Source of the DNA: Actinomycetota bacterium
GTDB lineage: Bacteria; Actinomycetota; Humimicrobiia; Humimicrobiales; Humimicrobiaceae
DNA: 50,671 nucleotides
NCBI GenBank assembly: GCA_023487035.1
Contig: JAMDEN010000027.1
Span: forward strand, 1-50,671
Direction of reading: 5' to 3'
In this document: positions 7,990-23,985 of the stretch, piece after piece
Layout: the number at the start of each line of letters is the position of its first letter
Position numbering within the stretch: the stretch's first letter is position 1
Made by a program: the position numbers and the translations under genes
Notes under the pieces: model-generated
What the model saw: the letters and a program-made list of their open reading frames with translations, nothing else
Database searches by the model: none
What the model was told of the DNA's origin: nothing

Positions 7990-9177
7990 ATGCATATCCC
8001 TAAAGGTACAGTTGTAGCAATGCTAACGCCTTTTGATGGTAGAGGAAAGATAAATGAGGTTGAAGTGAGGAAAATGGTTAATTTTTTCATTGCTAAAGGA
8101 GTAGATGGAATATTCCCAGTAGCTTCATGTGGTGAATATACTCATTTAGATTTAGCAGAGCGAAAATTTTTAATAGATATAGTAGTTGATGAAAATAGAG
8201 AAAGAGTTGACATTATTCCTGGTAGTGGTGCAACTTGTTATCACCAATCTATAGAAATGGCAAATTATGCAAAAGAAAAAGGTTGCTCAGCAGTTGTCTT
8301 ACATGGACCTTATTTTTTCCAAAATACTAAAGAAGTAGTAGAGGGGCATCTTCGAAAAGTAGCAGAATCTGTAGATATCCCAATATTTTTATACAATATT
8401 CCTTTTTTTGCTAATGAAGTTACACCAGCTATGGCAGAAAGATTATGTTCTTTACCAAATGTAGTAGGCATAAAGGAATCTTCAGGGAATATGATAAATG
8501 TTATGAATATATTGGAGATGACTAGAAAAATAAATCCAAATTTTAGAGTAATGTTAGGAGCTGAAGAAATATTTCTACCATCTTTGATGATGGGTGCTCA
8601 GGGATGTATGACTGCAACTACAGGAGTGTTACCAGAATTTATGGTAGGGATTTATAAGGCTTTTTTGGATGGTAATATTAATTTTGCTTATAATCTACAA
8701 ATGGCAATTCTACCAATAATTAGAGAGATGAAAAGTGTAAATTTTCCTCAAGGTTTTAAAGAGGCTCAATCTTTAAGAGGAATAGACATGGGGATTCCAA
8801 AAATGAATTATCCTCCCGCGGCATTAGCAAAGATTGCTGATTTAAAGGAAAGATTAAAGTTAATAATGGGGTCAGTTTTAAAAACATATTTTCCTAATGA
8901 AGAATTAAAATTTAATTTTGATATAAAAACGGCAAAATTTAAATACCCTGTCTCATCTTATAAAACAACAAGCATAAAAAAATATGATGATTGTACTTTA
9001 TGCGGGATGTGTAATGGTGATAATTGCAGAAATGAAAGTCAAGAGGTAGAAAAATCAAAAGAAAAAGGTAATTTTTATAATGATTATCAAAATTTTGATG
9101 GTAATAAGGAAATTCCTAAAGATGAAATAGATAAAATTGTATCTGAAATTGTTAAACAGATAATAAATTACAAATAA
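7990..9177 (+). CDS. DapA-family lyase with ~100-aa C-terminal extension carrying CTLCGMCNGDNC
   Basis: GTVVAMLTPFDGRG, PVASCGEYTHL, FLYNIPFFAN, VVGIKESSG; C-terminal KYDDCTLCGMCNGDNCRNE extension. Confidence 0.9.
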   Translation: MHIPKGTVVAMLTPFDGRGKINEVEVRKMVNFFIAKGVDGIFPVASCGEYTHLDLAERKFLIDIVVDENRERVDIIPGSGATCYHQSIEMANYAKEKGCSAVVLHGPYFFQNTKEVVEGHLRKVAESVDIPIFLYNIPFFANEVTPAMAERLCSLPNVVGIKESSGNMINVMNILEMTRKINPNFRVMLGAEEIFLPSLMMGAQGCMTATTGVLPEFMVGIYKAFLDGNINFAYNLQMAILPIIREMKSVNFPQGFKEAQSLRGIDMGIPKMNYPPAALAKIADLKERLKLIMGSVLKTYFPNEELKFNFDIKTAKFKYPVSSYKTTSIKKYDDCTLCGMCNGDNCRNESQEVEKSKEKGNFYNDYQNFDGNKEIPKDEIDKIVSEIVKQIINYK

Positions 9178-9816: not shown

Positions 9817-10977
9817 ATGTCAAAAACAAAATTATTATTAATTTTGATGTTAGTTGTAGCAGTAGTTACAACCTTAGCTATTTTGCCAGGTTGCAAAACT
9901 ACTTCAACTGCAACTACAGCAGCAGCTACTGAAACAACAGCTGCAGCAGAAACTACAGCAGCAGCTACTGAAACAACAGCTGCAACAACAGAATCTACAG
10001 AACCTGCAGGAGGTTATCCATTTTATGAAAAAATGAGAGAAGCTGCAAAAGCAAATAAAGAATATCCTGATGCTCCTGCAAAAGATTTTTCACTTGCTTT
10101 TACAAACATTATGGGTGGAATTCCATTCTGTGAAAATGTCTGGAAAAGTGTTCAAGATCAGTGGAAACTTGCTGGTGGAGATCCTAATAAACTTTACTAT
10201 GCTGACAACCAGTATGATGCAACTATAGGACTTAAAAATGCTGATATTATGTTAGCTAAAAAGCCAAATGTTTTAATTAATTTCCAGTTTGACTCAAAAG
10301 TTAACAGTATAATAGCTACAAAATTTGGTGCAGCTAATATTCCTATTATAGCTGTTGACGTTCCAACTCCAGGTGCGCCATTCATGGGTGTAAATAACTT
10401 TAAAGTAGCTTACATGGCAGGTCAGGAAGCTATTAAAGATGTTGAAGCAATGGGTGGAATTGATAAAATTGACAATATAATTTTAATGCAAATGCCGTCA
10501 GGTGGAGAAGTAACAATGCTTCGTTCAGAAGGTTTTTATCAGGCATTTGTTGATAAATATGGTGCTGATAAAGTTGATCCCAAAACAATTAGAGCAGATG
10601 GTGGTGCTGGTGAAGCTGAACAAGCTAACAAAGCTATGACTGATGTTTTATCAAAAATACCTAATGCTAAAACTTGTGTTTTAACTTCAATTAATGAAGA
10701 AACAATGAGTGGGATTATTTCAGCTATTCAAACTGCAGGAAGATGGGATCCTGAAAAATGGATTATTATCACCCAAGGTGTAGATGCTGTTGGTCAGCAA
10801 CAAATTCGTGACGGTTTAACAGATGCTGGTATTGCTTACTTCCCGGAACATTATGGTGAATACTTAATTCCTGGAGCTGTAGCATTAATGCATAATCAAC
10901 CAGTTCCAGCATTTATGTATGTTGAAAACGCTGTTATTACAAAAGACAATATTGACCAGTATTATCCAAAAAAATAA
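9817..10977 (+). CDS. Sugar ABC transporter substrate-binding lipoprotein (RbsB/RhaS-like)
   Basis: Lipoprotein signal LAILPGC; Thr/Ala/Glu-rich linker; periplasmic binding protein fold patterns (LINFQFDSKVNSIIATKF, IPIIAVDVP); followed by the cognate ATPase and permeases. Confidence 0.9.
   Translation: MSKTKLLLILMLVVAVVTTLAILPGCKTTSTATTAAATETTAAAETTAAATETTAATTESTEPAGGYPFYEKMREAAKANKEYPDAPAKDFSLAFTNIMGGIPFCENVWKSVQDQWKLAGGDPNKLYYADNQYDATIGLKNADIMLAKKPNVLINFQFDSKVNSIIATKFGAANIPIIAVDVPTPGAPFMGVNNFKVAYMAGQEAIKDVEAMGGIDKIDNIILMQMPSGGEVTMLRSEGFYQAFVDKYGADKVDPKTIRADGGAGEAEQANKAMTDVLSKIPNAKTCVLTSINEETMSGIISAIQTAGRWDPEKWIIITQGVDAVGQQQIRDGLTDAGIAYFPEHYGEYLIPGAVALMHNQPVPAFMYVENAVITKDNIDQYYPKK
9916..9987 (+). 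repeat. 39-bp tandem repeat (about 1.8 copies) encoding TAAATETTAAAET linker
   Basis: acagcagcagctactgaaacaacagctgca at 9916 and again at 9955, a 39-bp offset. Confidence 0.8.
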
Positions 10978-11099: not shown

Positions 11100-12593
11100 G
11101 TGGCCAATAATAATGGTATAGTTTTAAAAATGGACAATATTACTAAAACTTTTCCAGGAGTTATAGCGCTTGATGATGTTTCCATAGAGCTTTACAAGGG
11201 CGAAGTTTTAGGTATTTTAGGTGAAAATGGTGCAGGTAAATCAACACTTATTAAAATTTTAGCAGGTAATTATATTAAAGACTCAGGTTCTATTTTTGTA
11301 GATGGCCAGAAATTTGAAATAAAAAATCCTTCTGAAGCAATGGCTTCAGGTATTAGAGTAATTTATCAGGAGCTGAATTCCTTAAATAATTTAACAGTTG
11401 CAGAAAACATTTTTGTTGGTGAGCAGCTTGTCAAGAGTCCTTTTAAAATTGTTGACTGGAAAGCAATGAATAAAAGAGCTGCTGAAATTTTAAATGAGTT
11501 AAATGTTGACTTAGACCCTAATGCTATAATCGGTGATTTATCTATTTCTGAAAAACAGGTTGTAGAAATAGCAAAAGCAATATCAAAAGAAGCAAAAATA
11601 CTTGTAATGGATGAGCCGACTGCTGCTTTAAGCGAAGAAGAAACTCAATCATTATTTAAAATAATAAATACTTTAAAAACAAAAGGCGTTTCAATAATTT
11701 ATATCTCCCACAGATTAAAAGAAATTTTTGAAATAACTGACAGAGTTGTAATACTTCGTGATGGTAAAAAAGTAGGTTTAAGAAAAACTGTTGAGACAGA
11801 TGCTAATGAACTGGTTACTTTAATGGTTGGACGTGATATTAAGGAAATGTATCCTAAAAGGGAAGTGCTAATTGGAGAAACGGTACTGGAAGTTAAAAAT
11901 CTTAATGCTGAAGGTTTTAATGATATAAGTTTTAATTTGAGAAAAGGTGAAATTCTTGGAATATTCGGACTCCTTGGTTCTGGAAGAACTGCTCTTGTCA
12001 AAGCTTTGTTTGGTGCTAATAAAATTCATAGTGGAGAAATAATCATAAATGGTAAAAAAGCTAATATCAAAAGCCCGAAAATAGCAAGAGATGAAAAAAT
12101 AGGGCTTGTCCCGCTTGATAGAAAAGTTGAAGGACTTGCACTTCATCTGGGAGTTAAAGAAAATGTTACCCTGGCTAATATAGAAGACTTAGGTAAAGGA
12201 TTCTTAATAAATAAAAAACTTGAGAAAATAAAAGCTGGAAAATGGGTAAAAGAGATGGGAATAAAGACCCCTACTTTAGAGCAGGAAGTTAATAGTTTAT
12301 CAGGTGGTAACCAGCAAAAAGTGGTACTTGCAAAATGGCTTGAAAGCGGTTCAAAAATAATAATATTAAATGAACCTACAAGAGGAATAGATGTTGGTGC
12401 AAAAATTGAAATTTATAAACTTATGCAAAATTTGTGTGAAGAAGGTTCAGCAGTTATAATGATAAGTTCAGAACTTCCTGAAATATTGTCCATAGCTGAT
12501 AGAATATTAGTAATGAGTAAGGGAAGAATTACAGCACAATATTCGAGAACAGAGGCAACTGAAGAAAAATTGTTACAATCCGCATGTATTTAA
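11100..12593 (+). CDS. Sugar ABC transporter ATP-binding protein (RbsA/XylG-like, two ABC domains)
   Basis: GENGAGKSTLIK, LSISEKQVVEIAKAIS, second signature LSGGNQQKVVLAKWL; GTG start. Confidence 0.95.
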   Translation: MANNNGIVLKMDNITKTFPGVIALDDVSIELYKGEVLGILGENGAGKSTLIKILAGNYIKDSGSIFVDGQKFEIKNPSEAMASGIRVIYQELNSLNNLTVAENIFVGEQLVKSPFKIVDWKAMNKRAAEILNELNVDLDPNAIIGDLSISEKQVVEIAKAISKEAKILVMDEPTAALSEEETQSLFKIINTLKTKGVSIIYISHRLKEIFEITDRVVILRDGKKVGLRKTVETDANELVTLMVGRDIKEMYPKREVLIGETVLEVKNLNAEGFNDISFNLRKGEILGIFGLLGSGRTALVKALFGANKIHSGEIIINGKKANIKSPKIARDEKIGLVPLDRKVEGLALHLGVKENVTLANIEDLGKGFLINKKLEKIKAGKWVKEMGIKTPTLEQEVNSLSGGNQQKVVLAKWLESGSKIIILNEPTRGIDVGAKIEIYKLMQNLCEEGSAVIMISSELPEILSIADRILVMSKGRITAQYSRTEATEEKLLQSACI

Positions 12594-12614: not shown

Positions 12615-13598
12615 ATGCCCGAAATCAAAGCTTCTTCAATGGAGCCGGGGAAAAAAGCTAAAATTAGCAATACCGGAATTTTATTTATAGTTCTTGTGGT
12701 TTTATTTGCTTTATTTTCTTATGTTGGAAGACCTTTCTTTTTTTCTGTTTTAAACTTAATTCCCATGCTTAACAACCTTTCATTTATTGGCATAATAGCA
12801 GCAGTATTAACAATGGTTATGGTTACAGGAGAAATTGATTTTTCAATAGGAGGAAATATAGGATTAACAGCCTGCCTGGCTGCATTTTTATTATCAAAAG
12901 GGCTTCCTGGATGGCTGGTAGTAGTAATTGCATTATTTGGTGGAGCTGTAATGGGTGCTTTTAACGGATTCCTGGCAACTGTTGTCGGAGTAAATTCAAT
13001 GATTGCTACTATAGGCACCATGTTTATATGGAGAGGGATTGGATATACATTATCAAATGGCGAATCGATGCTTGCAATTAATCCTGTTATTGATTTTATA
13101 GGAAGAGGATTTATTTTTAAAGTAATTCCATTTCCAATTGTAATATTTATTATTATATTTGCGCTAACTTATGTTGTGATGAATCTTTCAAAATGGGGAA
13201 GAAGCATTTATGCAATTGGTACAAATCCTATGGCATCATATCTTTCAGGAATTAATGTTAAAAAAGTAAAATTTATTAATTTTTTGCTATGTGGTATTAC
13301 TGCATCTTTAGGAGGATTAATTTTAACTTCTCTTTCAGCTGTTGGTATGCCGCAGCATGGACAGGGACTTGAGCTTGTTATTATTTCAGGGATAGTATTA
13401 GGTGGAACTGCGCTTGGTGGTGGAAAAGGACAGATACTCGGAACCTTAGCAGGAACTTTAATTTTAAGCCTGTTATATAATTTTTTAACAATAATGAATG
13501 TTTATTATTATTACATTCAGATTGTTCAGGGAGCAGTTTTAGTACTTGTTGTTGCTACTTATGAAATAAGACAGTCAAGGGCTTTAAAAAGAGTTTAA
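12615..13598 (+). CDS. Sugar ABC transporter permease (RbsC-like)
   Basis: GEIDFSIGG motif, multiple TM segments, GGTALGGGKG. Confidence 0.93.
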   Translation: MPEIKASSMEPGKKAKISNTGILFIVLVVLFALFSYVGRPFFFSVLNLIPMLNNLSFIGIIAAVLTMVMVTGEIDFSIGGNIGLTACLAAFLLSKGLPGWLVVVIALFGGAVMGAFNGFLATVVGVNSMIATIGTMFIWRGIGYTLSNGESMLAINPVIDFIGRGFIFKVIPFPIVIFIIIFALTYVVMNLSKWGRSIYAIGTNPMASYLSGINVKKVKFINFLLCGITASLGGLILTSLSAVGMPQHGQGLELVIISGIVLGGTALGGGKGQILGTLAGTLILSLLYNFLTIMNVYYYYIQIVQGAVLVLVVATYEIRQSRALKRV

Positions 13599-13647: not shown

Positions 13648-14628
13648 ATGGCAAAACCAGAAAAACAATACTCAGGTTTAAGGAATTTTTTAAGAACACC
13701 TACGCCAACGCTGATAGGGTTATATATTGTAATGATAATAGTCTTTACGATTGCCGATAAAAATTTTTTAACTGTACAAAATTTCAGAGGAATTTTTAAT
13801 AATCTTGCAGTCTTTGGAATTTTAGCCTCAGGAATAACAGTTGTTATGATTGCGGGTGGTTTTGATCTTTCAATTGGTTCAATCTCGGGGCTTGTAGGTA
13901 TCGTAAGTGCAGTTTTAATGATGGATCAGTATGGTGTTCCAACCCCGTTAATTTTTATAATTGCAATAGCAATAGGCTGTGCTGTCGGATTAATTAATGG
14001 ACTTATAATTACAAAAATTGGAATTAACCCTATTATTACAACATTAGGTACTCTGGCAATTATCAGAGGTGTATGTTATTTTTGGGCTGATAAAAATCCA
14101 AGAATTTATAATGTTTTTATTCAAAATTTAGGGAGAAAATTTATCGCAAATGCTATTCCTTATACTACTGTCTATATAATTGTGTTTTTTGTAATTATCG
14201 CGTTAATTTTAAAATTTACAAGATTTGGAAGAAATTTATATACCATTGGTGGTAATGAAACTCTTGCAAGACTGGCAGGTATTCAAGTTGACAGAATAAA
14301 AATAATAACTTATGTAATATCCGGATTTTTTTGTTCTTTAGCTGGTCTTCTTTTAATTTCACAGTTAGGTTCAGGAAGGCCTGAATATGGAACAGGTGCA
14401 GAGCTTGAAGTATTAACCATAGTTGTTCTTGGCGGTGTTGCAGTTGGGGGAGGTAAAGGAAACCTTCTTGGCGTATTTGTAGCATTAGTTATAATTGGAT
14501 CCATTTCAAATGGTATGGTTATGCTGGATGTTCCGATATTTTTAAGACAGGTTGTAAAAGGTGCTTTACTTGTACTTGTAATATCAATTGATGCTTTAAG
14601 AAACAGACGTAATTTACAGCTTTATTAA
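13648..14628 (+). CDS. Sugar ABC transporter permease (RbsC-like), second
   Basis: GGFDLSIGSISG, GGNETLARLAGI, VVLGGVAVGGGKGN; paralogous to the preceding ORF. Confidence 0.93.
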   Translation: MAKPEKQYSGLRNFLRTPTPTLIGLYIVMIIVFTIADKNFLTVQNFRGIFNNLAVFGILASGITVVMIAGGFDLSIGSISGLVGIVSAVLMMDQYGVPTPLIFIIAIAIGCAVGLINGLIITKIGINPIITTLGTLAIIRGVCYFWADKNPRIYNVFIQNLGRKFIANAIPYTTVYIIVFFVIIALILKFTRFGRNLYTIGGNETLARLAGIQVDRIKIITYVISGFFCSLAGLLLISQLGSGRPEYGTGAELEVLTIVVLGGVAVGGGKGNLLGVFVALVIIGSISNGMVMLDVPIFLRQVVKGALLVLVISIDALRNRRNLQLY

Positions 14629-14837: not shown

Positions 14838-16319
14838 ATGGCTTCTAAGAACTATCTTATTTTTGATTTTGGTGCAAGTAATGGAAGAGCAATAGTAGCA
14901 AAATTTGATGGCAGCAAATTTGGACTGGAAGTAACTCACAGGTTTGACAATATTCCTGTATTTGCTACCGGGATTTTATATTGGGATATTTTAAGACTGT
15001 ATTCTGAATTAAAAAACGGAATCCTGGCATCTCATAAAATTTTTAAAAATATAGAATCACTTGGGATAGATACCTGGGGAGTTGATTTTGGTTTTATTGA
15101 TAAAAACGGTCATTTGCTGTCAAATCCGCATCATTACCGTGATGAAGCCAGAACTGCAGCTGCACAGGCAGTTCATAAAGATTTTCCTCCTGAAAAATTA
15201 TTTGAATTAACCGGCGGCCTTATAATGAGCATCATGTCTGTTTATCATTTGTATAATTTAAAAATTAATAATGCAATTGAACTTCCTAATGCATATAAAT
15301 TTTTAATGATGCCTGATTTGTTTAATTATTTTCTTACAGGAAATGCCTATAATGAATTTACAGAGGCAACTACTTCCATAATATATGATCAGAAAAACAA
15401 AAAATGGTCAGATGAAATATTGGGTAAGTTAAATATTTCAAAAGACATTTTCCCTCAAATCATTCAGCCGGGAAGTAAAGTTGGAGATCTTCAAAGTTCA
15501 GTTTTAAAAGAACTTGAAATTCCAAATATTCCTGTTATTGCACCTGCGTCTCATGATTCAGCTTCAGCTGAAACAGGTATACCCGTAATTGATTCAAAAA
15601 AAGTGTGGGCATTTGTGAGTATGGGTACCTGGCTTGTGGCTGGAGTAGAAACTTCTGAGCCAATAATAACTCCTGAAGCTTTTAAATTTGGATATGGAAA
15701 TGAGGGCGGTTGTGAAGGAAGAAATTTATTTGTAAAAAATATAAATGGTTTATGGATAATTCAGCAATGCATGGGAAAATGGAGAAAAGATAAAGGAGAA
15801 AATATACCCTGGCCTGAAATTGATAAAGTTTATCCCTTAGCTAAACCTTTTTACTCATTTATAAATGTTGATGATCCTGTTTTTATACCACCTTCATCTG
15901 ACATGCCTAAAGTAATTGCAAATTATTGTAAAGATAAAGGGCAGAATATACCTGAAGGTATGGCACAAATTTCAAGAAGTTTTTATGAAAGCCTTGTCCT
16001 TAAAATAAGGTTTAACATTGAGCAGACCCAAAAATTAATTGGTAAAAAAATAGAGCTTCTTCATCTGGTTGGTGGAGGTACAAATAATAAGCTGATATGT
16101 CAGTGGATTTCCAATTCTCTTGGTGTTCCTGTTGCTGCAGGCCCTACTGAAACTACAGCTGTAGGTAATCTTCTCATGCAATTAAAAGGAACAGGTGAGA
16201 TTAAGGATGTAAATGAGGGAAGAATGATTTGCAGAAATTCATCAAATGTTTTGTTATATGAGCCAAAAGAAAAAGAAATCTGGGATGCTGCTTATGAAAA
16301 ATATTTAAAAATTTTATAA
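14838..16319 (+). CDS. rhaB: Rhamnulokinase-like FGGY kinase
   Basis: FDFGASNGRAIV, SLGIDTWGVDFG, APASHDSASAETGIP, LHLVGGGTNNKLICQWISN. Confidence 0.9.
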   Translation: MASKNYLIFDFGASNGRAIVAKFDGSKFGLEVTHRFDNIPVFATGILYWDILRLYSELKNGILASHKIFKNIESLGIDTWGVDFGFIDKNGHLLSNPHHYRDEARTAAAQAVHKDFPPEKLFELTGGLIMSIMSVYHLYNLKINNAIELPNAYKFLMMPDLFNYFLTGNAYNEFTEATTSIIYDQKNKKWSDEILGKLNISKDIFPQIIQPGSKVGDLQSSVLKELEIPNIPVIAPASHDSASAETGIPVIDSKKVWAFVSMGTWLVAGVETSEPIITPEAFKFGYGNEGGCEGRNLFVKNINGLWIIQQCMGKWRKDKGENIPWPEIDKVYPLAKPFYSFINVDDPVFIPPSSDMPKVIANYCKDKGQNIPEGMAQISRSFYESLVLKIRFNIEQTQKLIGKKIELLHLVGGGTNNKLICQWISNSLGVPVAAGPTETTAVGNLLMQLKGTGEIKDVNEGRMICRNSSNVLLYEPKEKEIWDAAYEKYLKIL

Positions 16320-16608: not shown

Positions 16609-17586
16609 ATGAAACTTAATGTGGACGCTCATTTATGGTGTCTTGGAACTTATGCTGAAAGATATGTCCCTGGAGGTTATTTTGATGAACTTACTGCAGA
16701 TCAGCAACTGGAAATTATGTCAAAAATAAAAGGTCTGACAGGTCTGTTTACATTTTATCCAACAGCCCCACTTCCAAATGATCCTGATAAACTTGTAAAA
16801 AAAGTTGAAAGTTACGGGCTTAAAGTGTCAAATATTGCTGTTGAATGCTGGGGAGACAGAAAATGGAAACATGGTTCTTTTTGCACTAATGATGATAAAA
16901 TCAGGAAAGAAGCAATAAAACTGTTTAAAGATGCAGTTGATTTTGCAAAAGCAGTAAAAGCTGATAGTGTTTTATTATGGCCTGCTCATGATGGTTATGA
17001 TTATACTTTCCAGGTAAATTATGTTGAAGGTTGGAAAAATATGGTGGAGGCAGTTAGAGAAATTGGTGAGTATGCTAAAGATATGAAGATTGCCATTGAA
17101 GCTAAAAGTAAAGACCCGAGACAAAAAGAATATATAAATGACACTGGAAAAGCCATGGCTTTTGTTCGTGAAGTTAATTTAAAAAATGTAGGATGTGCTT
17201 TAGATATCGGGCATGCTTTAATGGCAGGTGAAGGAATTGGTGAGTCAGTAGCGTTACTTGATTACTGGGGAAAATTATATCAAATCCATATTAATGAAAA
17301 TTATAAAGATGCAGATCCTGACATGATATTTGGAACAGTTAATTTCTGGGAAATTCTTGAATTTTATTATTATTTAAATAAAACAAATTATGAAGGCTGG
17401 TGTGCCATTGATATAATTTCTCCTCGAGATGATAGAGCAAAATCTCTTGCCTTAGGTGTTAAACTTATGTGGAAATATCAGGAAATGGCACAAAAACTTT
17501 TAAAGCATGAAAAAGAAATTGACAAAAATTTAAAAGGTTATCATTTTGTTGATAATATTGATTTAATTTCTGGTTTATTATTTTAA
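16609..17586 (+). CDS. Sugar isomerase/epimerase TIM-barrel protein (probable rhamnose-pathway isomerase)
   Basis: Xylose-isomerase-like TIM-barrel patterns (VALDIGHALMAGEGIGES, IHINENYKDADPD); location between rhaB and rhaM. Confidence 0.8.
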   Translation: MKLNVDAHLWCLGTYAERYVPGGYFDELTADQQLEIMSKIKGLTGLFTFYPTAPLPNDPDKLVKKVESYGLKVSNIAVECWGDRKWKHGSFCTNDDKIRKEAIKLFKDAVDFAKAVKADSVLLWPAHDGYDYTFQVNYVEGWKNMVEAVREIGEYAKDMKIAIEAKSKDPRQKEYINDTGKAMAFVREVNLKNVGCALDIGHALMAGEGIGESVALLDYWGKLYQIHINENYKDADPDMIFGTVNFWEILEFYYYLNKTNYEGWCAIDIISPRDDRAKSLALGVKLMWKYQEMAQKLLKHEKEIDKNLKGYHFVDNIDLISGLLF

Positions 17587-17801: not shown

Positions 17802-18905
17802 TTGATAGAAACAGCTAAAATACTTCCCTATGAAGGTGATATAGATAAAAACAGACTTCTTAGTGCTTTCAGAAGAGAAAAAGTAGATAGAGTTCCTAAT
17901 TTTGAAATATTAATTGAAGACAGTCATGTTGAAAAAATATTAGGCCGCTATGCAGGAAATACCTTAGCAGTTGGAGGAGATCCTGCAAAAGGAGCTAATG
18001 CTCCGGCTGGCAGGCCAATGTATCCGGCTGATTATATAGAACTTTGCAAAATCATAGGCCAGGATGCAATGATGTTTGATGGAGGACTCTGGACCCCGTT
18101 TAAAAAACAGGATGAAAATGGCAACTGGGTTAATGCTTTTGATAGATCAGTTAGAACAAGAAAGGATTTTGAAAGCTTAAAACTTGATTCAGAAAATGCA
18201 ATACAAAATACCGTAAATTATATTCGTGAATATAAAGAAGAGGTTAAAAAACAGAATATAAACTTGGGTGTAACAGCCCTTTACGGATGTCTTATCCAGA
18301 CATTATATGAATTTGTTGTAGGCATGAATGATTTTATGATGATGATTTATGAAGACAGAGACCTTGTTGAGGATATGCTTGAAGTTTCAACAGTTCATTT
18401 CGTTAATTTAACCAAAGCAATGGTAGCTGAAAAAGTAGACTTTATATTCCCGGCAGATGACGTTGCATTTAAAACAGGACTCTTTATCCCTCCTAAACTT
18501 ATGAAAGAAATGTGGATTCCAAGAATGGCTCGTATATTTGAACCTGCCCTTAATGCAAATATTCCAATAATGTTTCATTCTGATGGTAAAGTAGATGATA
18601 TAGTAGAAGACCTTATAAATATAGGCTTAAATTGCTTGAATCCGATGGATCCTTATGGAATAGATTATCGTGACTATAAGAAAAGATTCGGTTCAAGACT
18701 GTGCTTATCAGGAAATATTGATGTTGAATTTCCACTCTCAAAAGGGACACCTGAAGATGTTGAAAAAGATGTAAAAGAACACATGGAAGTACTTAAACCG
18801 GGATACGGTTATGTAGCAACATGCTCTCATTCAATAGTAAATTACATACCTCATGAGAACTATATAGCCTACATTAATGCGATTCATAAATACGGCAGGT
18901 ATTAA
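17802..18905 (+). CDS. Uroporphyrinogen decarboxylase-family protein, probable corrinoid methyltransferase
   Basis: UroD/MtaA-family pattern (FRREKVDRVPNFE, IPIMFHSDGKVDDIVEDLINIGLNCLNPMDP, CLSGNIDV); TTG start after ggaggc RBS; adjacent corrinoid protein. Confidence 0.85.
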   Translation: MIETAKILPYEGDIDKNRLLSAFRREKVDRVPNFEILIEDSHVEKILGRYAGNTLAVGGDPAKGANAPAGRPMYPADYIELCKIIGQDAMMFDGGLWTPFKKQDENGNWVNAFDRSVRTRKDFESLKLDSENAIQNTVNYIREYKEEVKKQNINLGVTALYGCLIQTLYEFVVGMNDFMMMIYEDRDLVEDMLEVSTVHFVNLTKAMVAEKVDFIFPADDVAFKTGLFIPPKLMKEMWIPRMARIFEPALNANIPIMFHSDGKVDDIVEDLINIGLNCLNPMDPYGIDYRDYKKRFGSRLCLSGNIDVEFPLSKGTPEDVEKDVKEHMEVLKPGYGYVATCSHSIVNYIPHENYIAYINAIHKYGRY

Positions 18906-18944
18906 TAAATATTTATAAATCTTTTATCTAAAAGGAGTTACTTT

Positions 18945-19592
18945 ATGGCAATACTTGATGATATTTACAGCACAACAGTAAAAGGAGCATACAAAGAAAT
19001 AGAGCCCTTAATTCAAAAAGCACTCGGTGAAAATATTGATATAAATGACATAATAAATAATTCTCTTTCAAAGGCAATGATATATGTTGGAGATAAATTC
19101 TCAACAGGTGAGCTTTACATGCCTGATATGCTGCTATCTGCTAAGACAATGAAAGCTGCAATGGAGGTACTTAAGCCGCACATGAAGAAAAATAGTCACA
19201 TAGCAGAAAAAGGTACAATTGTAATAGGCACTGTTAAAGGTGATCTTCATGATATAGGTAAAAACCTGGTTATTACAATGGCTGAAGGTCAAGGCTTTAA
19301 AGTTATAGATTTAGGTATAGATGTGGATTATTCTAAATTTGTTGATGCAATAAAAGAGAATAATCCTGATATAGTTGCATTTTCAGGTCTTCTTACAACT
19401 ACACTTGCAAATATACCAACTCATATAAAAGCAATAGCTGATGCAGGTCTAAGAGATAATGTAATACTTGCAGTAGGAGGTGCTCCTGTTACAAGACATT
19501 TTGCAGACATGTATAATATAGAAATATATGCTCCAGATGCTTCAGCTGCTGCCAAGGAGTTTGTAAAAGCTGTGGAAAATAAGAAGAAATAG
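18945..19592 (+). CDS. Corrinoid (B12-binding) methyltransferase-associated protein
   Basis: GTVKGDLHDIGKNLV (DxHxxG cobalamin-binding motif), N-terminal helical cap (YVGDKFSTGELYMPDMLLSAKTMKAAMEVLKP), VAFSGLLTTTL, GGAPV. Confidence 0.95.
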   Translation: MAILDDIYSTTVKGAYKEIEPLIQKALGENIDINDIINNSLSKAMIYVGDKFSTGELYMPDMLLSAKTMKAAMEVLKPHMKKNSHIAEKGTIVIGTVKGDLHDIGKNLVITMAEGQGFKVIDLGIDVDYSKFVDAIKENNPDIVAFSGLLTTTLANIPTHIKAIADAGLRDNVILAVGGAPVTRHFADMYNIEIYAPDASAAAKEFVKAVENKKK

Positions 19593-19799: not shown

Positions 19800-20120
19800 A
19801 TGGCAAGATATGGCATGATTTGGAAAATAAAACCTGAATTAAAAGAAGAATACAAAAAAGATCATGATAATATTTGGCCTGATATGAAAAAAGCATTAAA
19901 GGATTGTGGATATAGGAATTATTCAATATATTTTAGAAAAGACGGCACAATGTTTGCTTATCTGGAACATGATAATTTAGAAGAAGGCAGCAAAAAAATG
20001 GCAGCTACTGAAGTTAATACAAGATGGCAGAAAGCAATGGCTAAATATTTTGTAAACAGTGATCCCACGATTCTTGGACCTGAAATAGAAATGCTTGAAG
20101 AAGTTTTTCATATTGATTAA
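19800..20120 (+). CDS. rhaM: L-rhamnose mutarotase
   Basis: MARYGMIWKIKPELKEEYKKDHDNIWPDMKKALKDCGYRNYSIYFR...; typical ~105 aa RhaM pattern. Confidence 0.93.
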   Translation: MARYGMIWKIKPELKEEYKKDHDNIWPDMKKALKDCGYRNYSIYFRKDGTMFAYLEHDNLEEGSKKMAATEVNTRWQKAMAKYFVNSDPTILGPEIEMLEEVFHID

Positions 20121-20474: not shown

Positions 20475-21626
20475 ATGAGATATTTATTAACAGAAGAACA
20501 AAAAATGATAGTTGAAATTTGTAGAAGAATAGTAGAAGAAAGAATTATTCCTGTAAGAGCTGAATTAGATGAGAAAATGATTTTTCCTGCAGAAATAATA
20601 GCTGAAATTGGCAGAAGTGATCTTTTCAGATTATTTATTCCTGAAAAATATGGGGGAATGGGAACAGGTATTTTTGAGGTATGTCTTGCAACTGAAGAAT
20701 TAAGCAGGGGTGATTTAAGTGTAGCGACAACGTATGCTGCAAGCGGCCTTGGCTTTATACCAATAATTTTAATGGGCAGCGAAGAACAGAAAGAAAGATA
20801 TCTTCCGCAACTTGCAAGTGGAGAAAAGCTCGCAGCTTTTGGACTAACCGAGGCGGATGCTGGAAGTGATGTAAGTGCAATTAGAACAACAGCAGTTAAA
20901 GATGGTAATTATTATATTTTAAATGGAACAAAACAATGGATAACAAACGGTGGAGAAGCAGATATTTATACTGTTTTTGCTAAAACTGATCCCTCAAGAG
21001 GAGCAAGAGGGGTTAGCGCTTTCATAGTTGAAAAAGGAACAGAAGGTTTCGAATTTGGAAAGAAAGAAAATAAACTTGGAATAAGAGCTTCTGCAACAAG
21101 AGAATTAATATTTAATGATTGTAAAGTTCCAAAAGAAAATCTTATATCTAAAGAAGGTATGGGTTTTATCATAATAATGAAAACCTTTGATCAATCAAGA
21201 CCTGCTGTTGGGGCTCAAGCTGTTGGAGTAGCACAAGCAGCATTAGAAGAAGCGTTAAATTATTCAAAGATAAGATTTCAGTTTGATTCTTCGATATCAT
21301 CTTTTCAGGCAATTCAGCATATGCTTGCTGATATGGCAACCAATGTTGAAGCAGCAAGATCACTTGTTTATTATACTGCACAAGCAATTGATAATGGTGA
21401 GAAAGATATTTCAAGATTATCTGCAATGTCTAAATTATTTGCTTCAGATATGGCAATGAAAGTTACTACAGATGCAGTGCAAATATTTGGAGGCTACGGA
21501 TTTATGAAAGATTACCCGGTTGAGAAAATGATGAGAGATGCAAAAATAACTCAGATATATGAAGGAACCAATCAGATTCAGCGAAATATAATAGCACTTG
21601 ACCTTATAAAAAAAGGTTTTATTTAA
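20475..21626 (+). CDS. Acyl-CoA dehydrogenase
   Basis: AFGLTEADAGSDVSAIRTTA, KQWITNGGEADIYTVFAKT, QIFGGYGFMKDYPVEKMMRDAKITQIYEGTNQIQRNII. Confidence 0.96.
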   Translation: MRYLLTEEQKMIVEICRRIVEERIIPVRAELDEKMIFPAEIIAEIGRSDLFRLFIPEKYGGMGTGIFEVCLATEELSRGDLSVATTYAASGLGFIPIILMGSEEQKERYLPQLASGEKLAAFGLTEADAGSDVSAIRTTAVKDGNYYILNGTKQWITNGGEADIYTVFAKTDPSRGARGVSAFIVEKGTEGFEFGKKENKLGIRASATRELIFNDCKVPKENLISKEGMGFIIIMKTFDQSRPAVGAQAVGVAQAALEEALNYSKIRFQFDSSISSFQAIQHMLADMATNVEAARSLVYYTAQAIDNGEKDISRLSAMSKLFASDMAMKVTTDAVQIFGGYGFMKDYPVEKMMRDAKITQIYEGTNQIQRNIIALDLIKKGFI

Positions 21627-21785
21627 AATTTTAAAATTATAATTTTTATAAGAATTATAAAATTTATTATCTTATTTTCTAAGAGGTAATCAGGATTATT
21701 AATAAAAAGGTAATATTTTTTTAATAAAAATTATATGCAGGAGTTTTAAAAATATTAACAATAAATAACAGGATTATTAAATATA

Positions 21786-22610
21786 ATGGCCGATAAGTTA
21801 ACAATTATAGTATGTATAAAACAAGTACCAGGTATAACTGAAATTAAAATAAATCCAGAAACGAACACTCTTATAAGAGAAGGGATTGAAAATATAATAA
21901 ATCCGTTTGATACATATGCGATAGAAGAAGGTGTTAGACTAAAAGAAAGATTTTTATCTGATACTAATAATATTAATTCAGATATTCAGGTTATTGCTAT
22001 CAGCATGGGTCCGCCCCAGTCAAAAGAAATTTTAAAAGAGGCAATTTCACTTGGAGTTGATAATGGGATTTTACTCTCTGACAGGGCTTTTGCCGGTTCA
22101 GATACATGGGCAACTGCTTATACTTTGTCAAAGGCAATTAAAAAAATTGAAGGCTGGAAAATCATAATTCTTGGCAAGCAAACACTTGATGGCGATACAG
22201 GTCAAGTTGGTCCGGAGCTTGCTCAAATTTTAAATATACCTTTTTTAGGATATGCAAGCAAAATTGTAGAAATTGATAAAAATAAAATAATAATAAAAAG
22301 GCTTATGGAAGACAGATATGAAACATTTGAAATGAAGCTTCCTGTTGCAATATCTGTTGGCAAGGACATAAATATTCCCAGAATTCCTTCGCTTAGAGGA
22401 AAAATGAAAGCTAAAAGTGCAGATATACCTGTTTGGGATAATAAACACCTGGGTTTGGATGAAAAAGAATGCGGACTTAATGGTTCTTATACTCAGGTAA
22501 TAAAAATATTTACTCCTGAACATAAACATGAAATTAAAATCATAAAAGGGACACCAGAAGAACAAGTTAATGAGATATATTCTAGATTAAAAGAATTAAA
22601 TTTAATTTAA
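21786..22610 (+). CDS. etfB: Electron transfer flavoprotein beta subunit (FixA/EtfB)
   Basis: CIKQVPG, INPFDTYAIEEGVRLKE, GKQTLDGDTGQVGPELAQILNIP. Confidence 0.95.
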   Translation: MADKLTIIVCIKQVPGITEIKINPETNTLIREGIENIINPFDTYAIEEGVRLKERFLSDTNNINSDIQVIAISMGPPQSKEILKEAISLGVDNGILLSDRAFAGSDTWATAYTLSKAIKKIEGWKIIILGKQTLDGDTGQVGPELAQILNIPFLGYASKIVEIDKNKIIIKRLMEDRYETFEMKLPVAISVGKDINIPRIPSLRGKMKAKSADIPVWDNKHLGLDEKECGLNGSYTQVIKIFTPEHKHEIKIIKGTPEEQVNEIYSRLKELNLI

Positions 22611-22731
22611 TTTATGAATTTAGTTTATGAATTGGCTTTTTAAAGAATTTATTATTTTTTTGAATCTAATTTAATAAGAATCTAATTTAATAAGAATTTA
22701 ATTAAATAAGAAATTGGAGAATTTGTTTTAA

Positions 22732-23985
22732 ATGGAAATAAAAGTTGACATTCAGAAATGCACTGGTTGTGGAATATGCAAAAATTATTGTATGTATGAT
22801 GCAATAGAAATAATTAATAAAAAGGCAATAATAAATGAAAATTGTATTTATTGTGGAGCATGTGTAGAATCCTGCAAATATAATGCAATTGAAATTACAA
22901 GCGATAATAAGATTGAAAAAGATTTTTCTGATTACAAGGGTGTATGTGTTTTTCTTGAAACACATGATAATAAAATTATTGATGTAGGTTTTGAACTTTT
23001 AAGTACTGGTAAAATTCTTGCAAATAATCTTGGAGTTAATTTATCTGCTGTTTTGATTTGTGATAACGAACCATTGAATTTGTATGATGTTTTTAAATTC
23101 GGACTGAACGAGCTTTTTTTTGTAAAAAGCAATATTTTTATAAACAATACAGATGATATTTTTGCAAAAGCATTAGTGCAAGTTATAAATAAATATAAAC
23201 CGGAGATTTTTCTTGCTGGTGCAACAATGTTTGGAAGAACATTAATTCCAAAAGTTGCTGCAATAATTAAAACAGGCTTAACTGCTGATTGCACAGCATT
23301 ATCCATTGATAATGATAAAAAAATTCTCCTTCAGACAAGACCTACATTTGGAGGAAATATTCTGGCAACCATTGTTACTAAAAATTCAAGACCCCAAATG
23401 GCAACTGTAAGGCCTCATGTAATGGAAATTAAGTATGAAAACAAAACTAATGATACAGATAACAATCAGAATAATAATAATGAAAAAGGTTTATCACTTT
23501 CTGATTATCGAAACAAAATAAAATATATAGAAATTGATGAATCAAAATTTAAAACAAAATATAAATTAATCAGCAAGGAAAAAGAAACAGAAGAAAAAAT
23601 AAATTTAAATGATTATGATGTAATAGTTTCAGGCGGAAGAGGTCTTGGTGGTGCAGATAAATTTAAAATGTTAAAGGAACTTGCAGAGCTGCTGGGTGGG
23701 GTAGTAGGAGCTTCAAGAGCAGCAGTTGATTCTAACTGGATATCATATCCTCATCAAGTCGGGCAAACCGGAAAAACAGTTAATCCGAAATTATATATTG
23801 CAGTAGGAATTTCAGGGGCAATTCAGCATCTTGCAGGTATGCAAACTTCAGATATGATAATTGCTATAAACAAGGATCCCAATGCACCGATATTTAAAGT
23901 TGCTAATTATGGTATTGTGGGGGATATGTTTGATATTATACCTAAGCTTATTAACAAAATTAAAGCTGGCAAACCCATAATTTAA
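22732..23985 (+). CDS. etfA: Electron transfer flavoprotein alpha subunit with N-terminal 2x[4Fe-4S] ferredoxin domain
   Basis: CTGCGICKNYC and CIYCGACVESC clusters, then EtfA with VSGGRGLGG, GASRAAVDSNWI, QVGQTGKTVNPKLYIAVGISGAIQH. Confidence 0.95.
   Translation: MEIKVDIQKCTGCGICKNYCMYDAIEIINKKAIINENCIYCGACVESCKYNAIEITSDNKIEKDFSDYKGVCVFLETHDNKIIDVGFELLSTGKILANNLGVNLSAVLICDNEPLNLYDVFKFGLNELFFVKSNIFINNTDDIFAKALVQVINKYKPEIFLAGATMFGRTLIPKVAAIIKTGLTADCTALSIDNDKKILLQTRPTFGGNILATIVTKNSRPQMATVRPHVMEIKYENKTNDTDNNQNNNNEKGLSLSDYRNKIKYIEIDESKFKTKYKLISKEKETEEKINLNDYDVIVSGGRGLGGADKFKMLKELAELLGGVVGASRAAVDSNWISYPHQVGQTGKTVNPKLYIAVGISGAIQHLAGMQTSDMIIAINKDPNAPIFKVANYGIVGDMFDIIPKLINKIKAGKPII

Follow-up and report, generated by a model that had tools for sequence, protein, structure and literature searches.

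UROD and CORR, a UroD-superfamily protein and its corrinoid partner: a probable sugar-linked methyltransferase system in Humimicrobiaceae

The locus and its genes

The window, by which we mean the whole stretch of 50,671 nucleotides that was analysed, belongs to a 2.2 Mb MAG of an uncultured anaerobe in the Humimicrobiaceae (Actinomycetota), here called the host genome. A gene for a UroD-superfamily protein (UROD) is followed after 39 bp, on the same strand, by a gene for a corrinoid carrier (CORR). A sugar importer, a RhaB-like kinase and a xylose-isomerase-like protein are encoded upstream of this pair and rhaM lies downstream, all on the plus strand (Table 1). An earlier note, made from the DNA letters alone, had described co-directional genes for a UroD-family and a DxHxxG corrinoid protein in a sugar locus. 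Both open reading frames are intact, and the profile matches agree with that description. The UROD gene starts with TTG, which is preceded by AGGAGG, a good ribosome-binding site. Scanning the AT-rich region for promoters and terminators gave results near the shuffled expectation.

Table 1. Genes of the UROD-CORR locus, with positions in the window.
Feature	Position	Strand	Remarks
Sugar-binding lipoprotein (Peripla_BP_4), CUT2-type importer	9817..10977	+	kept with UROD in relatives
Sugar ABC importer ATPase (AraG/RbsA type)	11100..12593	+	profile matches
Importer permease 1 (BPD_transp_2)	12615..13598	+	profile matches
Importer permease 2	13648..14628	+	ORF and translation; homologues with 71-90% identity in relatives' loci
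RhaB-like FGGY kinase	14838..16319	+	best family TIGR02627, 365 bits (below equivalog cut-off 528)
Xylose-isomerase-like protein	16609..17586	+	PF01261; best solved relative 3ktc, 152 bits
UROD, UroD superfamily, proposed methyltransferase I	17802..18905	+	367 aa; PF01208 (URO-D) 96.5 bits (cut-off 23.9)
CORR, corrinoid carrier, B12-binding_2 + B12-binding	18945..19592	+	215 aa; PF02607 + PF02310; DLHDIG motif (DxHxxG) at residue 100
RhaM-like mutarotase	19800..20120	+	PF05336 98.5 bits (cut-off 23.4); TIGR02625 72.7 bits (below cut-off 99.6)

Two neighbouring regions deserve a remark of their own. The DHDPS-family protein encoded at 7990-9177 has an unusual C-terminal tail: after a stretch rich in Cys (CTLCGMCNGDNC) comes a helix-like end similar to a microcompartment targeting peptide. 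At 20475-23985 a gene for an acyl-CoA dehydrogenase (acryloyl-CoA reductase-like, below cut-off) is directly followed on its 3' side by an EtfB-like gene and an EtfA-like gene with ferredoxin domain; these genes are kept beside the locus in two of the collected loci (L042 and L043).

Fold and candidate active site of UROD

The AlphaFold model of UROD (mean pLDDT 84.5) is a UroD-type barrel, for which Foldseek returned UroD and the methylcobalamin:CoM methyltransferase 4ay7 as best matches; the identity to MtaA/MtbA over the barrel is about 18%. Against the MtaA/CmuA model TIGR01463 the protein reaches 79.9 bits, below the curated cut-off of 235.4. The earlier note had pointed to HSDG in place of the HxC of MtaA, and the alignment indeed places His259-Ser-Asp261 and Y337 (HxD...Y) where MtaA-type proteins carry their HxC...C zinc ligands. 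As this thiol-activating site is not kept, CoM-type second methyltransferase (MT2) activity of UROD is unlikely, and an MtaA-type MT2 role was rejected for the missing thiol-binding site.

Other positions are strongly conserved. D219, D220, S260, D261, H343 and S344 are invariant across 50 UROD homologues, and H259 is found in 49 of them. H343 aligns with a conserved His of UroD. From its conservation, the set D219/D220, H259, D261 and H343 (DD/HxD/H) could form an alternative metal site. The methyl ether of an aldose is, like methanol, a poor leaving group, so that an activating metal would be expected, for which this set is the natural candidate. Alkyl methyl ethers are poorer substrates than aryl ethers, a point against an aldose ether as substrate, and would require a strong activating site in UROD. 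The motif E-x14-E-x20-H, which we take to be the zinc motif of acetogen methyltransferase I (MT1) proteins, was also considered and dropped, as the candidate glutamate E236 is kept in only 37 of the 50 homologues.

UROD and CORR in other genomes

UROD orthologues and their flanking genes were gathered from 60 relatives and by searching through 84,980 species genomes (loci L081-L103 mostly duplicate loci already collected and were counted once). The close UROD clade of the tree comprises 19 members, all from Humimicrobiaceae, and in 18 of them a corrinoid gene is linked. In 17 of the 19, the window included, CORR lies at most 235 bp from UROD on the same strand. In one further member (L057) the distance is 4 kb, and the locus of the last one (L056) stops at a contig edge. 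An adjacent pair with a truncated UROD (L072) was omitted from the tree. Altogether, UROD and CORR are encoded side by side as separate genes in 17 Humimicrobiaceae relatives besides the window, with gaps of 12-235 bp, and they stay adjacent despite an altered order of the surrounding genes.

Outside the Actinomycetota, CORR is encoded directly upstream of UROD in two Ardenticatenia (L106, L107). Three spirochaete MAGs (L104, L109, L111) encode a single fused chain with UROD at the N-terminus followed by CORR, and a Chloroflexota MAG (L110) has a fused chain in the opposite order. URO-D, B12-binding_2 and B12-binding were all found by Pfam in the fusions of L104, L110 and L111; the L109 fusion was read directly and matched by tblastn. 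The tree places fused and adjacent groups apart, and the opposite orders in separate branches indicate at least two fusion events. The recurring adjacency and the fusions speak strongly for joint action of UROD and CORR, whose pairing is not due to chance. Conservation of this neighbourhood had been proposed earlier as a check, and it holds both across Humimicrobiaceae genomes and across phyla.

Not every UROD relative has such a partner. There is no corrinoid gene near UROD paralogues at 54-68% identity, nor near the UROD of one spirochaete and of Planctomycetota and Acidobacteriota; the paralogues may use a shared carrier or have another activity. The host genome encodes 43 UroD-family matches versus three B12-binding_2 corrinoid proteins, each of the latter adjoining a UroD gene. 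Many of the inspected UroD-family genes of this genome, including clusters on contigs C142 and C171, have genes for sugar importers or sugar enzymes at a distance of no more than 6 kb.

The excess of UroD-family genes suggests that many of them act without a dedicated carrier, and UroD itself is a decarboxylase with a conserved His to which H343 of UROD aligns. The pair could carry out a different sugar reaction, e.g. decarboxylation or the cleavage of a C-O bond, in which no methyl group is transferred. We regard this as very improbable, since two-domain corrinoid proteins of the CORR type are methyl carriers in the characterised cases, and since the activase and second methyltransferase described below fit methyl transfer.

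Sugar context

The protein encoded upstream of UROD had been called a rhamnose-type isomerase in the earlier note. This label is wrong: L-rhamnose isomerases score only about 34 bits, against the 152 bits of the 'xylose isomerase' 3ktc, and the L-rhamnose isomerase model TIGR02635 yields 71.4 with a cut-off of 531. The kinase stays below its rhamnulokinase cut-off, and the mutarotase matches the L-rhamnose mutarotase family PF05336. A class II aldolase, as expected for rhamnulose-1-phosphate cleavage, was found nowhere on the window's contig; the host genome encodes four of them on other contigs, one of which (on C99) lies near an orthologue of a second UroD protein, UROD2.

In 13 of the 17 relatives RhaB-like, RhaI-like or RhaM-like genes lie within 12 kb of the pair, in most cases together with an importer. 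Among the remaining four, three have the pair beside a second UroD gene and a class II aldolase, and one is a contig of 3.4 kb. In Chloroflexota the neighbours of the pair are a DeoR regulator with a fused sugar-binding domain, a RhaM-like protein (PF05336) and importer genes. The fused proteins of the Spirochaetota (L104, L111) lie beside LacI-type regulators and importer genes. In an acidobacterial locus (L115) UROD alone follows RhaB-like and RhaI-like genes. The surroundings of UROD-CORR are sugar-catabolic in three phyla.

The same picture emerges from gene content. By genome, 21 Humimicrobiaceae encode both UROD and the isomerase-like protein, two only the isomerase, none only UROD and 12 neither (Fisher p = 1.1e-7, a figure inflated by shared ancestry). 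By genus the corresponding numbers are 11, one, none and three (p = 0.009).

These data bear on the possibility that UROD and CORR are a corrinoid methyltransferase system whose methyl donor is not a sugar but methanol, a methoxy-aromatic, a quaternary amine or a methyl halide. Such a system would merely share the operon, for instance if donor and sugar were set free from one and the same polysaccharide. Characterised MT1 proteins of the UroD superfamily do use methoxy-aromatics and halomethanes. CORR matches the NCBIfam models of MtgC/MtbC/MtaC-type corrinoid proteins, all below cut-off, and its best match is the glycine-betaine MtgC model. However, the independent sugar contexts in three phyla and the near-perfect co-occurrence of UROD with the isomerase-like gene argue against such a donor, as does the weak, partial similarity of UROD to the chloromethane protein CdmB (25.5 and 31.8 bits). 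We consider a non-sugar donor unlikely.

Which sugar is handled is harder to say. UROD orthologues also occur in loci with FucI-like instead of RhaI-like isomerases (L051, L052, L057), so the clade is not tied to one isomerase. A methyl group at O-2 would block an aldose-ketose isomerase and one at O-3 would hinder the aldolase; demethylation before isomerisation would therefore make sense for rhamnose. The earlier proposal, that the pair demethylates O-methylated 6-deoxysugars, is partly supported: the conserved neighbourhood, the activase and the second methyltransferase favour a corrinoid methyl transfer tied to sugar catabolism. O-methyl-rhamnose is a plausible substrate only, as the isomerase is not of the rhamnose type by sequence, kinase and mutarotase stay below the rhamnose-specific NCBIfam cut-offs, and FucI-like contexts occur.

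Several further observations were made around these loci. On contig C99 of the host genome there is a second locus (L154:780-12166), made up of genes for the UROD2 orthologue (76%), a CUT2 importer, the class II aldolase (67%) and two Amidohydro_2 proteins. This aldolase and UROD2 adjoin the UROD-CORR pair in other genera. In Chloroflexota, genes next to UROD/CORR (L106:6259-8019 and L110:208-2103) encode DeoR regulators with a fused sugar domain that resembles periplasmic binding proteins. In Actinomycetota, Spirochaetota and Acidobacteriota, UROD and RhaB/RhaI-like or importer genes repeatedly have as neighbours a gene for a RuBisCO-like protein (MtnW/OiaX-like) and genes for E1-alpha, E1-beta and E2 of a complex similar to 2-oxoacid dehydrogenases (L054:201-4881, L104:720-5381, L115:5859-15553); perhaps these represent an unknown sugar pathway. 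On contig C161 of the host genome a UROD relative (32%; L078:13172-14284) is interrupted by TAG; close by are a CUT2 importer and an apparent glycyl-radical enzyme with its activase. This TAG, like another in the genome of a relative (G012), is taken as gene decay or sequencing error. MTTB-family methyltransferases, apparently non-pyrrolysine (no internal stop), are encoded along with a second corrinoid protein within sugar loci or next to them (L053:14202-15650, L055:2921-4381, L051:12178-15692 and L057, as well as C6 and C142 of the host genome, L074 and L075). This setting is unexpected, since characterised MTTB relatives act on methylated amines.

Activase, second methyltransferase and one-carbon enzymes

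The earlier note had suggested searching the genome for an activase and an MtrH-like protein. One RACo-type activase is indeed encoded, away from the window locus on contig C95, with the domains PF14574, PF17651, PF17650 and Fer2 of an ATP-dependent reductive activase. A pterin-type second methyltransferase was found as well, on contig C165, but it is AcsE/MtgA-like, a MTHF:corrinoid methyltransferase (NF005719, 277.7 bits, cut-off 259), and not MtrH-like: the only MtrH match of the genome is below cut-off and is this same protein. The sole other PF00809 match (C43) is much stronger (285.8 bits) and probably a dihydropteroate synthase. MetF and formyl-THF synthetase (FTHFS) are encoded too, so that methyl groups could be oxidised.

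Neither activase nor MT2 is linked to the window locus. In a relative from another genus (G020, L138) the activase, a corrinoid protein and an MtgA-like protein are encoded by neighbouring genes on one strand, which supports the roles of the C95 and C165 proteins. No RACo match was found in one relative with the UROD-CORR pair (G029, 98% complete). The activase gene of the host genome lies in a run with a BMC shell gene and LarA-like, GlcF-like and GcvH-like genes, and in another relative (G016) it closes a run that encodes BMC shell proteins, PduL, a class II aldolase and a PduP-type aldehyde dehydrogenase; fucose/rhamnose microcompartments are known to have this composition. Activase genes with BMC shell, LarA-like, GlcD/GlcF-like and GcvH-like genes were seen at L076:124-8924, L141 and L155.

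With a candidate MT2 at hand the roles within the pair can be weighed. UROD might itself be the MT2 that unloads CORR, and CORR would then receive its methyl group from a different enzyme of UroD or MTTB type, encoded in the locus or elsewhere; MtaA-type UroD proteins are MT2s, and UROD2, UROD3 and MTTB-family genes recur in the loci of relatives. Such a division of labour appears quite improbable to us: UROD lacks the HxC...C site, the window locus encodes no other MT1, the partner of CORR in the spirochaete and Chloroflexota fusions is UROD and none of the other paralogues, and the genome already holds an AcsE/MtgA-like MT2.

Proposed pathway

That the pair is a sugar-linked corrinoid methyltransferase system is well supported, while its substrate is unproven. 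The explanation that we favour, and hold to be fairly probable, is that UROD and CORR are the methyltransferase I and the carrier of an oxygen-independent O-demethylase for an O-methylated aldose handled by the locus. The substrate would most likely be a methylated 6-deoxyhexose, e.g. an O-methyl-rhamnose; methyl-rhamnose specifically is plausible but unproven. All components of such a system are present in the genome, and what we infer is the reaction, the metal, the sugar and the following order of steps. The importer would take in the methyl sugar, and the RhaM-like mutarotase would interconvert its anomers. UROD would bind it, polarise the ether oxygen, probably via a metal on D219/D220, H259, D261 and H343, and hand the methyl group to Co(I) of CORR. 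From there the AcsE/MtgA-like enzyme encoded elsewhere would transfer it to tetrahydrofolate, where it would be oxidised via MetF and FTHFS, and the RACo-type activase would rescue corrinoid oxidised to Co(II). The freed sugar would be isomerised and phosphorylated before a class II aldolase cleaves it.

Only tentatively do we extend this to a wider picture: corrinoid-dependent, oxygen-independent sugar demethylation with a UROD-CORR core might exist in at least three phyla, with a DD/HxD/H metal site unlike that of known UroD-fold methyltransferases; the UroD radiation of the Humimicrobiaceae (43 genes in 2.2 Mb) might be a repertoire of sugar methyl-ether demethylases, and the activase might be linked to a deoxysugar-type microcompartment.

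Polysaccharides of plants, algae and microbes commonly contain methylated sugars. Our literature search found no corrinoid demethylation of methyl-rhamnose or other methyl sugars; as far as the literature searched shows, their anaerobic demethylation is undescribed, and the sole route found depends on a P450. If true, a corrinoid sugar demethylase would connect the breakdown of sugars with one-carbon metabolism in anaerobes of the subsurface. It would also offer a testable function for some of the UroD proteins found beside sugar transporters, in a superfamily that is very large and for the most part uncharacterised.

Comparison with known systems

In marine bacteria, P450-dependent demethylation of 6-O-methyl-D-galactose precedes normal sugar catabolism (PMC10033563). 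The proposed pathway shares with this route the removal of the methyl group ahead of ordinary catabolism; unlike it, the P450 reaction is oxygen-dependent, yields formaldehyde and involves no corrinoid.

With MtaA/MtbA, the methylcobamide:CoM methyltransferases, UROD has the fold and the low barrel identity in common, but their HxC...C zinc site is HxD...Y in UROD. CmuA combines MT1 and corrinoid protein in one chain, as the fused spirochaete and Chloroflexota homologues do; in contrast, the window proteins are separate and stand in a sugar context, and UROD falls short of the TIGR01463 cut-off. The chloromethane dehalogenase CdmBCA of Acetobacterium dehalogenans likewise consists of a UroD-fold MT1, a separate corrinoid protein and a THF-directed MT2. 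Its CdmB is metal-free and hydrophobic, whereas the UROD family, only weakly similar to it, keeps the invariant DD/HxD/H set.

The three-component anaerobic O-demethylases MtvABC, Odm, Vdm and MtoABCD are set beside the window system by their components; at the level of sequence, UROD was compared with the related CdmB. As here, they comprise a UroD-superfamily MT1, a small corrinoid protein, a pterin-type MT2 and an ATP-dependent activase, and the pairing of a UroD-superfamily MT1 with a two-domain corrinoid protein, typical of Mtv/Odm/Mto systems, is found physically and genetically for UROD and CORR. Their substrates are methoxy-aromatics, whereas the window locus is sugar-catabolic and its MT2 and activase are unlinked. 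The system would work like such a three-component O-demethylase; we place it outside the MtaA/CmuA family, since UROD fails both the cut-off and the metal site of that family.
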